A stretch of DNA of 64,000 nt, from the NCBI RefSeq assembly GCF_001761485.1, contig NC_090772.1, positions 62,001 to 126,000 of the forward strand, given 5' to 3'. The notes under the pieces are model-generated. The model ran no database searches. It was given only the letters and a program-made list of their open reading frames with translations, and had not been told where the DNA came from. The stretch is from Yarrowia lipolytica (Eukaryota; Ascomycota; Dipodascomycetes; Dipodascales). This document shows, in pieces, positions 23,701 through 26,898 of this stretch; positions within the stretch are counted from its first letter, which is position 1, and each line of letters starts with the position of its first letter. A program made the translations under genes and the position numbers.

Positions 23701-23856
23701 ATGACCACAATGGCCAACTCGGAGCAATGCAAGTACTGTCGCAAGTTTGTGTACAAAGCTCTGTGGGAGACACATGTTCAAGAGTGCAAGATTGGAATTG
23801 GGATAGCTGCTCACACGGGGGAGTCTGCTGGTACAAGTCCCAAGACTAAGCGGTGA
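23701..23856 (+). CDS. C2HC zinc-knuckle microprotein, copy 1
   Basis: This is a 51-codon ORF with one zinc-knuckle pattern C-x2-C-x11-H-x3-C (Cys10, Cys13, His25, Cys29). A short polar, Ser/Thr/Lys-rich tail follows. The spacing equals that of UBZ4/Rad18-type ubiquitin-binding fingers and related C2HC fingers, but assignment to that family is inference. It starts at an ATG in the context CAATACATG. It is the first of five nearby ORFs with the same spacing (three plus strand, two minus strand). It has no signal peptide or membrane segment. It is too short for most annotation pipelines. Confidence 0.6.
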   Translation: MTTMANSEQCKYCRKFVYKALWETHVQECKIGIGIAAHTGESAGTSPKTKR

Positions 23857-24418
23857 TGACATGTAATGAATTATGACGGTAGGGTATTGATTGAGGTAGA
23901 GTGTATTGATTAATGTAGAGTGTATTGATTAATGTAGAGTGTACTGATTGATGTAGAGTATCACGATCCCTCGCAGTCTCCATAACTATACAGCAAAGTC
24001 CAGTCAAAATCTTGCAATGAGGTTGATGGCCGTATCGCTATTGATTGAACCTGCGTCATATTGCGTACTCGTACCCGACGAGCCCCAAAAAACCACAAGA
24101 CGAGAACAAAGTCCCTACTGCCAGCCCATCTGACCTCTCGGCTGTGGAATACTCATCTTTACCAGAGGTATAACAAAGCATACAGTGCAAGATCACGTAT
24201 AGTACAATAGTTCCAAAGCAGCCTCCACTTGCCCCACAGTTCAATGTCTCATGGAGTCCGCCATCGATACGGTGAGTACGATGGGTGCGGTGACTTCTAA
24301 CGTTGTTGGAGCTAGAACACTCTTGTGGGACTCGTTTAAATGGGGCCAATCAGTCCTATTTCAGGTGACTACAAGCCGACTCATTCCCAGTTGTACTGTT
24401 CGTCTCCTTGCCCGTCCA
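23857..24418. other. spacer between knuckle ORFs 1 and 2
   Basis: This contains an 18-bp tandem repeat just downstream of ORF 1 and no gene. An upstream in-frame ATG of ORF 2 lies at 24251. Confidence 0.55.
23881..23962. repeat. about 18-bp tandem repeat, 4 units
   Basis: Units of the form GTAGAGTGTATTGATTAAT are repeated about four times with few changes, right after the first zinc-knuckle ORF. Confidence 0.85.
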
Positions 24419-24544
24419 ATGTCAAACACTCAGTCTCTCAAGGCCATCACTCAGTGCGACTGGTGTAGGGAATTCATGACTGTTCGTGAAGAACGACGCC
24501 ACCTCCAGGTGTGCCCCAAAAAGCAAAAAGGCAAGAAAAAGTGA
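24419..24544 (+). CDS. C2HC zinc-knuckle microprotein, copy 2
   Basis: This is a 41-codon ORF with C-x2-C-x11-H-x3-C (Cys13, Cys16, His28, Cys32) and a very basic C-terminal tail of Lys and Gln (PKKQKGKKK). The frame is open up to another ATG at 24251, which would give 97 residues. The shorter start is preferred because the other copies carry 7-12 residues before the first Cys and the extension has no sensible composition. The basic tail could mean nuclear location or RNA/DNA contact (inference). Confidence 0.6.
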   Translation: MSNTQSLKAITQCDWCREFMTVREERRHLQVCPKKQKGKKK

Positions 24545-24711
24545 CTGCTTAAAAAGTCAGGGCCACAGATCGGCTGACCTTCTCTCTTGCTCATCACTAC
24601 ATCACTCGAGCCTAGCAGCCCTACTGTCGGTAGCTCCACTCAACTAGCTCCACAACCTACAAGTAGCTCCACTCAACCTAGATCAACTCATACACTCTCT
24701 TCACTACAACA

Positions 24712-24810
24712 ATGCAGCGACATGAAAAGAAGGGTGTTCGGTGTCAGTATTGTGGAAAGAGTATCCATATCGACGACTGGCATTTTCACAAGGCCAAGTG
24801 CAACACATAG
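24712..24810 (+). CDS. C2HC zinc-knuckle microprotein, copy 3
   Basis: This is a 32-codon ORF, almost nothing but the knuckle: C-x2-C-x11-H-x3-C with Cys11, Cys14, His26 and Cys30. The start has a strong yeast context (CTACAACAATG). The stop follows two residues after the last Cys. It is the smallest of the five. Such a protein would be a minimal zinc finger; whether it is translated cannot be told from sequence. Confidence 0.55.
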   Translation: MQRHEKKGVRCQYCGKSIHIDDWHFHKAKCNT

Positions 24811-25338
24811 AGACTGCTTATTTATTAGTAATTGATGATCATGACTGAAAGGTATTTGATGTACTACAAGTAGCCTGTATCGCATTCAGTACATACTGTA
24901 CTGTACCGGACTATGGTCGAAAATACGCATTCGGTGGACGGTCAAGATGTGTTTCAGAAGAACCGCAGGGTGTGTACTACACTTTCTGTATGAAAGGAAG
25001 TAGGAAAAGATGGAAGATATGGTCGATGGAGTTGAATTGATTTTAGAGCGGTGAGAGAGAAGTGTGGTATCTCCAATACAGCGATAAAACCCCTTTTATA
25101 TTAAGGGCTATATATATATATATATATACAGTTATACAAGTATATCACAACTCACACACCTACAATATACACTACTGTACACTACATGTCAAGTCACACT
25201 CCATGATGCAATATCAAATTATCTTCTCGAAGAGAGCTGGAGGTGATGCTTATGGCCACAACTCAGAAATGCAGAAAACGAGACGAAGCTGAAATGCAAT
25301 AATGCGATAAATGAAATGGCTAGTAAACAATCAATCAA
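24811..25338. other. spacer between knuckle ORFs 3 and 4
   Basis: No gene is seen. A TA run lies at about 25112-25130, with scattered TACAAGTA words. It separates the plus-strand copies from the minus-strand copies. Confidence 0.55.
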
Positions 25339-25575
25339 TCACTTGACGCTCTTGAGCTTCTGATAGTACTCGGAACATGCCTTGATGTGGGTGTCAAACT
25401 CTTTGTAGGGATAATAGCCCTTGCAAATGTCGCACATTTGAAGAGTGTTGTTCAGGTCGTCACTCATGGTGTGGTTGGTGTGATTGGTCTTTTTGGTGGT
25501 TGTGGTTGTGGTTGTGGTTGTGTTGGTGGTGAGAATAGCAGTGGTGGTTTTGTACGTGGTGGGTGTATTTGGCAT
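25339..25575 (-). CDS. C2HC zinc-knuckle microprotein, copy 4, with Thr-rich N-terminus
   Basis: This is a 78-codon ORF, or 42 codons if it starts at the second plausible ATG (25467). The knuckle is C-x2-C-x11-H-x3-C near the C-terminus, with an aromatic-rich loop (GYYPYKEF). The longer form has an N-terminal low-complexity Thr run encoded by a simple repeat of ACC/ACA codons. That run may be an expanded leader rather than protein. The tail is EYYQKLKSVK. Confidence 0.6.
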   Translation of the reverse strand: MPNTPTTYKTTTAILTTNTTTTTTTTTKKTNHTNHTMSDDLNNTLQMCDICKGYYPYKEFDTHIKACSEYYQKLKSVK

Positions 25576-25791
25576 TGAAGAGTATCAAATAAGAGATTCG
25601 GAGAGGGATGATATAGTGGCAGATAAGAGATTGACCCTGATCACTGGGTGAGCGGTGGATCATGAGCTGTAGGTCACAGATGCAAGGTGAAACTGTACGT
25701 GATGACGGGCAATGGGGCTCAAGGCTGACGTTGAAGTTGTGATTTGCCCTCTTTCTCGAAAATTAATATCGAACAGGCCCCGTTTTGAGGC

Positions 25792-25923
25792 TCACGACCA
25801 CTTGTTGATCTTGCCGTTTTTGGCCCGACCCAGCATCAAGAAACAGGCGTCGATGTGCACCCGAAAGTCCTTCTCGGAATACTTGGCTCCGCAATACTGG
25901 CATCTGATCATCTCTTCGGTCAT
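25792..25923 (-). CDS. C2HC zinc-knuckle microprotein, copy 5
   Basis: This is a 43-codon ORF with C-x2-C-x11-H-x3-C (Cys8, Cys11, His23, Cys27) and a tail with LGRAKNGKINKWS. The beginning of the knuckle (CQYCG) matches copy 3 exactly, which argues that the copies are related rather than chance finds. The start ATG at 25923 is preceded by GCCA. Confidence 0.6.
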   Translation of the reverse strand: MTEEMIRCQYCGAKYSEKDFRVHIDACFLMLGRAKNGKINKWS

Positions 25924-26022: not shown

Positions 26023-26898
26023 AGAGGCCCCAAGTCCCACTAACAAAGAGGTGCGTTTTGTGGCCTAGGTGCAGCGCAGCACAAGGGCTGTCTTGCATGT
26101 ACCCCGTCTACGAGTGGTGTGCAACTAATTATGTAATCTTTTGCTGTGAATGGGGTAGTCCATCGAAAAACAAACCGGTGGCAAGTATTCTTGCATCGTC
26201 GTGACACTGGATCGGACCCACTACAAATAGCCTCTTCTAACCTCTTCATTGTTGTTCTCCGCTTAACATTTAGAGTCTCGTATCCAACCTAATTTGGAAC
26301 TTACGAAACGAAGCTCGATCTCGTTCTCGTGATGCAGGCGATGGGGCGGCATCGTCTTCTTTTTTTGTGGAGACAGCTTCTCTGGTGCAAGAGGTAGCAA
26401 ACATGGGTGCAGACAGGGAGAAATACAAGCGCAATGTCTTTGTCTACGTTTTCTTCTCAGTGTCTTGATCCGGAAGGGTCTAACAGAACTTGCAGGTCTT
26501 TCAACCCCAGAGCATGAGTCAGCTTTGTTAAGACGGAATAATACACCGCAGCCTCAACAGAAATGGTTTGTAGGGGACAAAAAGAGATGGATCTGCTGGG
26601 TGCTGAACTGGGCCTCTCGCAAAAGTCTAGGGCACCCTAAGCGATAAATATACCACTTTTCTATTCTTGAGCATACAATATTCATCGGCCGGAGTAAAGT
26701 ATTTTCCCATAAAAAAAAGAATAAAAGAATAAAAAATAAAAAAGTATAAAAAGGATGAAAAATCGAGAATGAACCATTAGAAAAATAATAATAATCCACG
26801 CAATGAATTGGATATGGATGGGGAAAGATTGGGGTACGAAAATAAAATAAAATAAAGAGTCTTGAGAATGTTGGTCCAAACAGATTGATTGACTGATT

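Follow-up and report, generated by a model that had tools for sequence, protein, structure and literature searches.

We analysed a 64,000-nucleotide stretch of the Yarrowia lipolytica genome (contig NC_090772.1, positions 62,001 to 126,000; hereafter, the window), in which five tiny open reading frames (ORFs), each encoding one C-x2-C-x11-H-x3-C zinc finger, are clustered between 23.7 and 25.9 kb. Judging from sequence, we consider it probable that these are real coding microgenes, and that they belong to a Yarrowia family of at least 14 members whose products would be free-standing beta-beta-alpha C2HC microproteins acting as adaptors. That the ORFs are coding, form a family and are conserved is supported computationally, whereas we infer their folding, partners and co-regulation. 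The genome used throughout was that of strain CLIB89/W29 (20,500,066 bases in six contigs).

Five single-finger micro-ORFs are clustered in the window

All five ORFs listed in the original prediction were found where it had placed them, each with exactly one copy of the motif. Their preferred lengths are about 32-51 residues. Micro-ORFs 1 (23701..23856, 51 residues), 2 (24419..24544, 41 residues, with a Lys-rich tail) and 3 (24712..24810, 32 residues) are located on the plus strand, and micro-ORFs 4 and 5 (25792..25923, 43 residues) on the minus strand. For micro-ORF 4 the preferred frame (25339..25467) encodes 42 residues that begin with MSDDLNN and end with the tail EYYQKLKS; a longer frame (25339..25575, 78 residues) adds a Thr-rich leader encoded by CA-rich DNA.

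When all six frames were read from stop to stop, the exact motif was present five times in the window, always between 23.7 and 25.9 kb, whereas 0.103 occurrences per 64 kb are expected by chance (first-order Markov model trained on the window, 300 replicates, maximum 2). The claim that five such ORFs in 2.2 kb are not a chance event, for which a comparison with random sequence had been proposed as a check, also holds against a model trained on the surrounding 3.6-kb stretch (0.0103 expected per 3.6 kb; at most 1 in any of 3000 replicates). No exact motif was present in 200 kb of the genome, sampled as 20 pieces of 10 kb exclusively from contigs C1 and C2.

The micro-ORFs have features of coding sequences

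In all 14 members of the family, which includes loci outside the window described below, a Met codon is located 5-12 codons ahead of the first Cys; among random positions, 17% show a Met within 15 codons with no stop in between. For some members the query itself carried a Met; all eight that were found otherwise (five by pattern, three by a Pfam finger) have the Met as well. Synonymous codon scores, based on a codon table from 39 ORFs of at least 400 residues (the window among them, antisense frames kept), rank the window five between the 92nd and 99th percentiles of a comparison set of 1159 small ORFs of 30-66 codons, which contains some of the window ORFs (p = 1.4e-4). Taken as a set, all 14 members scored above the same small ORFs (p = 3.4e-8), i.e., they have Yarrowia-type codon use. 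Between two paralogues on C1, differences fall on 16, 11 and 27 of the 42 first, second and third codon positions, respectively (third, 27/42, versus first plus second, 27/84; Fisher p = 0.001), and a pair on C5 has a nonsynonymous divergence (dN) of 0.61 and a synonymous divergence (dS) of 2.19.

Since 264 kb held as many as 1159 ORFs of 30-66 codons, one could suppose that the cluster is a statistical oddity of intergenic DNA. We find this barely credible: a chance origin of the five ORFs was rejected on four tests, being contradicted by the motif excess, by codon usage, by profile cross-tests and by relatives that retain all ligands.

The cluster belongs to a larger, diverged family

Genome searches revealed at least nine additional single-finger micro-ORFs outside the window, on contigs C1, C3, C4 and C5, which together with the window five make 14 distinct loci. 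This number is a lower bound, the searches having used single proteins or library families. Out of 11 genome matches to the Pfam model PF13913 (zf-C2HC_2), three were single-finger micro-ORFs on C1, C3 and C4 (L003, L004 and L007), six fell in long C2H2-type ORFs and two (L009 and L011) had no pattern at the match. In protein searches, the paralogous C1 pair showed 59% identity over 37 residues (E = 4.7e-11), and members on C5 and C3 matched weakly (E = 0.034 and 0.05). The adjacent C5 paralogues are 43% identical over 30 residues (E = 2.9e-4). C5 also carries a second cluster, of three fingers that all start inside 1.8 kb of the same strand. Searching the genome with ORFs 1 and 3 and with members C3:1660k and C4:2957k (E up to 10) returned self-matches only, as did ORF 4 (E up to 0.001); ORF 5 retrieved itself and C4:2957k (E = 0.02).

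An additional C3 member (E = 0.004) is present in two copies 60 kb apart (regions of C3:2703884 and C3:2764342), with 3090 of 3090 bases identical. These identical stretches of at least 3090 bp reflect either recent duplication in the genome or sequence duplicated in the assembly. Chromosome C of CLIB89 exceeds its CLIB122 counterpart by ca. 94 kb (PMC5014426; papers are cited by PMC number here and below).

The 14 fingers resemble one another beyond their zinc ligands. Mean identity by position at non-ligand sites was 0.146 versus 0.063 for position-shuffled fingers, a value reached by none of 1000 shuffles; for the window five it was 0.125 versus 0.064 (reached by 12 of 5000 shuffles). The description of the sequences around the finger as widely different was therefore only partly right, non-ligand identity being above that of shuffled fingers. 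A profile built from the nine non-window fingers assigned 21.3, 8.7, 10.3, 20.0 and 15.2 bits to ORFs 1-5, respectively, and a mean of -0.1 and a maximum of 12.8 bits to 32 chance motifs used as decoys. ORFs 1, 4 and 5 were thus above every decoy, and ORFs 2 and 3 were each exceeded by one decoy. With the test reversed, eight of the nine non-window fingers scored above all decoys, and the ninth was reached by one decoy. Based on these cross-test scores, ORFs 1, 4 and 5 are clear members of the family and ORFs 2 and 3 are probable ones. For the most diverged members, some room is left for convergence on a common fold.

The idea of a genuine, fast-diverging microprotein family, originally put forward for the window cluster, is thus supported, and the family is larger than had been seen. 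As to the duplication proposed as its source, the C1 and C5 pairs speak for it, and homology within the window rests on profile similarity and one 21-nt match. This match (24531-24551 versus 24800-24820, 81%) extends across the stop codons of micro-ORFs 2 and 3 and is perhaps a trace of duplication; beyond it, a repeat search of 21-28 kb found no DNA repeat linking two of the ORFs. No description of the family was found in the literature by title or abstract start among the matches listed, with subscription papers and preprints mostly outside the coverage.

Database relatives retain the finger

Close database relatives were identified for four members: ORF 1 (P0015), ORF 4, C3:1305k (P0016) and C3:1660k (P0010, with P0009 identical). 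Relatives of ORF 4 are P0013 (Yarrowia sp. C11 and a second Yarrowia record), P0014 (Yarrowia sp. B02) and P0017. C11 and B02 each probably belong to a separate novel species of Yarrowia, that of B02 being early-branching (PMC8091737). In the six non-identical relatives, 24 of 24 zinc ligands are kept, and the fingers are identical at 14-19 of 20 residues. The ORF 4 tail is probably functional too, since EYYQKLKS is conserved in all three ORF 4 relatives. P0014 is two-fingered: the part related to ORF 4 is followed by a second finger, for which no W29 match was listed in the genome search.

The same relatives bear on the start of micro-ORF 4. P0013 has a Met in register with position 25467, inside a longer annotated frame whose leader is similarly open; the Met of P0014, its annotated start, is two residues nearer the finger, and the Met of P0017 is four residues nearer. 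For this reason, a start at the internal Met (25467) appears more likely than one at 25575. The original list of ORFs is corrected on two points: the 25339-25575 frame is likely shortened to 42 residues, and 24419-24544 is part of a longer frame, open from ATG 24251 (24251-24544, plus strand, 97 residues). The protein database includes the 78-residue and 97-residue window frames themselves (P0004 and P0012). The 97-residue frame contains GTGAGT at 24272 and CTAAC at 24297, and a 5' intron or an upstream ORF is possible there.

A public gene model fuses two of the micro-ORFs

One named public model was found among the matches for the window cluster. YALI1_C00874g, an 83-residue "uncharacterized" Y. 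lipolytica protein encoded on a contig of 3,366,276 bases, consists of ORF 5 fused to ORF 4 and implies a 333-nt intron (25463..25795, minus strand, GTGAGC...ATGAG). Were the model right, the micro-ORFs would be exons of multi-finger genes, the minus-strand pair encoding one spliced two-finger protein and the plus-strand ORFs being joined likewise. The protein that joins the minus-strand ORFs is carried by NCBI and stems from an annotation whose evidence included RNA-Seq (PMC5014426), and P0014 of Yarrowia sp. B02, also two-fingered, comes from RNA-Seq-hinted gene finding (PMC8091737). Moreover, ACCAAC, a one-base variant of the branch-point motif, is located 8 nt ahead of the acceptor triplet; because a 2026 intron census admits one-base variants of ACTAAC (PMC13309789), we gave the spliced model slightly more weight.

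Several features of the DNA nevertheless argue against splicing. The implied intron has no CTAAC, CTAA or TAAC, whereas over 92% of the Y. lipolytica introns in an earlier set contain CTAAC, adjoining the 3' site (PMC2911113). Motifs that equal ACCAAC in quality turn up in 9.8% of random 43-nt stretches, and there is no CTAAC-N0-4-YAG on either strand between 23.5 and 26.0 kb. The junction deletes the ORF 4 Met, which stands in register in P0013 and is displaced by two and four residues in P0014 and P0017, and each of the 14 members has its own Met just upstream. We therefore regard multi-finger genes as unlikely. An intron that lacks CTAAC and removes the ORF 4 Met is, in our judgment, not real, and the fusion in YALI1_C00874g appears to be a prediction artefact of a gene model that we judge wrong.

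The fingers have a predicted beta-beta-alpha core and lack the combined residues of known ubiquitin contacts

Positions Cys1+2, Cys2+4, His-3 and His+1, which would form the core, are hydrophobic in 13, 14, 13 and 12 of the 14 fingers, respectively (Cys counted as hydrophobic). By sequence, this spacing is that of a classical beta-beta-alpha C2H2/C2HC finger in the broad sense. The initial label of "zinc knuckle" was wrong and is rejected: retroviral-type knuckles have the form C-x2-C-x4-H-x4-C, and the spacing here is x2, x11, x3.

Among solved sequences (best 60 of 109), the family profile ranked the multi-finger protein Aart first, its several weak finger matches having been added up, the WRNIP1 UBZ second (3vhs, E = 2.7e-4), the C2HC/C3H-type 9y6s_4E fourth and the RAD18 UBZ ninth (5vf0, E = 0.005), the others down to ninth being RING-ligase, TRIM or C2H2 entries. 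In the alignment used for this search and for the family search of Pfam, the adjacent C5 row carried two residues before the Met and lacked the last two; the Met, residue, codon and profile-score analyses used the correct ends.

The ranking of two UBZ entries raises the question of whether the members bind ubiquitin as UBZ4 microproteins, acting as competitors for its chains or as a shield over them. The ligand spacing of the WRNIP1/RAD18 UBZ, whose equality with that of the window ORFs had been pointed out before, is indeed present in 14 of 14 members, and member C3:2704k is closest to RAD18 among six solved sequences listed (E = 0.017). However, WRNIP1-type binding of ubiquitin proceeds via Pro21-Val22 and Asp37 (PMC4370504), which counting on the 3vhs sequence places at the C-x-x-C loop and at His+2, and no member combines this Pro with this Asp (Pro at Cys1+1 in 7/14, Asp at His+2 in 1/14). 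In 10 of the 14, Asp at His+2 is replaced by Lys or Arg. The D(-4)-A(0)-L(+3) helix set of FAAP20 and Pol eta (motif from PMC4267625) is likewise present in 0 of 14, and no member exceeded a UBZ Pfam cut-off. By contrast, two UBZ4-like fingers in long ORFs of the same genome, of which one is over the PF18279 cut-off, have both the Pro and the Asp (CPVC and HLD, with H-x4-C). The genome matches to PF18279 were three: a 355-residue frame over the cut-off, a 639-residue frame below it and one known family member.

The suggested ubiquitin binding, in either the WRNIP1/RAD18 or the FAAP20 mode, thus finds no support, the residue combinations being absent from all 14 members, and we consider UBZ4 microproteins improbable. 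UBZ4 membership was rejected, as the defining ubiquitin contacts are missing. The members probably fold like a UBZ4 finger, yet should not be filed as UBZ4. Since no member passed any listed Pfam cut-off (0 of 14), no family label was assigned.

Protein binding or nucleic acid contact

A single finger with basic residues at the helix end and in the tail may also contact DNA or RNA, or dock on the acidic patch of histones. Consistent with such contact, Lys or Arg occupies His+2 in 10 of 14 members, tails are strongly basic in several (the 24419 ORF, C5:1040k and C3:1305k), and two members have weak Pfam matches to Sgf11. Against it, the members span net charges of -4 to +8, with 4 of 14 tails being net negative, so that a common nucleic-acid role is not general; the Sgf11 matches are under the cut-off; and single C2H2-like fingers alone rarely bind DNA specifically. 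We take contact with nucleic acids or nucleosomes to be rather doubtful as the role of the family. As candidate functions, we place that of a protein-binding adaptor first and nucleic-acid or nucleosome contact second.

A candidate shared promoter element

The hexamer TGGGGC, or its complement GCCCCA, is present within 400 bp upstream of 9 of the 14 members and of 8 of 51 ORFs of at least 300 residues (Fisher p = 7.5e-4); the 14 sites counted correspond to 12 distinct ones, because clustered members share upstream DNA. Six of the sites are located between -78 and -124, where 0.42 are expected. These include two in the window that we list as exploratory candidates for a shared promoter element, at 24341..24346 (plus strand, -78 of micro-ORF 2) and at 26027..26032 (minus strand, -109 of micro-ORF 5). 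The top upstream 8-mer had p = 2.8e-6 among 4666 tested. Co-regulation through TGGGGC is offered as a lead only.

Interpretation

Several observations weigh against reading the five ORFs as coding members of one co-regulated family. The database search found no relative of ORF 5, and among the matches listed there was none of ORFs 2 or 3, bar the window's own 97-residue frame. Several members were initially reached via weak matches (E from 0.004 to 0.05). Three of the 14 have undistinctive codon scores (72nd, 72nd and 82nd percentile), and the two minus-strand window ORFs, with dN of 0.87 and dS of 0.64, give no signal of constraint. Most paralogues are saturated in divergence, NG86 yielding no dS in four of the eight pairs shown. 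Finally, the same 14 sequences served both to discover the TGGGGC motif and to test it, and its position window was picked after the sites had been seen.

With these points taken into account, we still favour a family of coding microgenes for adaptors. Each member would be one free-standing beta-beta-alpha C2HC finger, preceded by a short N-terminus and followed by a short tail that is often basic. Local duplication, giving the two clusters, and dispersal may have spread the family, with the zinc ligands and hydrophobic core retained and the surface diverging. The folded finger would serve as a small adaptor or competitor, binding a partner protein via its variable surface and tail, and members are possibly co-transcribed through the TGGGGC element ca. 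80-125 bp upstream. A more far-reaching version, in which a genus-specific, jointly regulated set of single fingers provides interchangeable interaction modules, each with its own recognition surface on a common, fixed zinc fold and all switched on via TGGGGC, is possible, and we advance it tentatively.

If the fingers are such interchangeable modules, they would constitute a eukaryotic microprotein family devoted to partner diversity, without a known parent protein; if they are co-regulated adaptors, they would offer a tractable system for the origin and diversification of new single-domain regulators. This well-studied industrial yeast appears to carry a family of 14 or more small genes, which are ready targets for functional study, and a probable gene-model error, YALI1_C00874g, is corrected. 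Scans for ligand spacing combined with codon bias can expose microprotein families that gene prediction easily misses or fuses.

Surroundings of the cluster

The cluster is flanked by ordinary-looking genes, which encode an E2 ubiquitin-conjugating enzyme (15288, plus strand), an MFS transporter (18975, minus strand), a DUF4336 protein (22109, plus strand) and a Cdc6-like ATPase (27585, minus strand). An Rfam scan of the window at the gathering threshold gave tRNA as the sole match. Shortly 3' of micro-ORF 1, at 23881-23956, a 19-bp unit (AGTGTATTGATTAATGTAG-like) is present in head-to-tail copies.

Comparison with known systems

Plant and animal microProteins are, like the members of the Yarrowia family, small and single-domain (PMC6003976). 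They are, however, related to larger proteins, whereas the Yarrowia family has no identified parent protein. Haloarchaeal small zinc-finger proteins (C(P)XCG, Brz) are also under 70 residues (PMC11241148, PMC2253796); compared by description only, they carry archaeal C(P)XCG motifs and not C2HC ones.

Among Pfam families, zf-C2HC_2 (PF13913) was the commonest weak match: of the 13 members in that search, 5 matched it at an E no higher than 1 (best 5.2e-5), but none of the 14 reached its 27-bit gathering score; the best scored 23.3 bits, and in the search of the genome with this model the best match, at 22.9 bits, was also under the cut-off. The Sgf11-type C2HC finger (PF08209) was matched weakly by C4:2957k (E = 0.0037) and C1:1332k (E = 0.08), both below the cut-off. 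Sgf11 has a SAGA-binding helix, for which 30-65 residues leave no room.

The UBZ4 fingers of WRNIP1 and RAD18 (3vhs/3vht, 5vf0 and 2mre), which were among the best single-finger matches listed, have the same ligand spacing and a compatible beta-beta-alpha core. They differ in using Pro-Val plus Asp for ubiquitin (Pro with Asp, 0 of 14 here). UBZ4s are domains of larger repair proteins, whereas in the Yarrowia family the finger makes up the whole protein.

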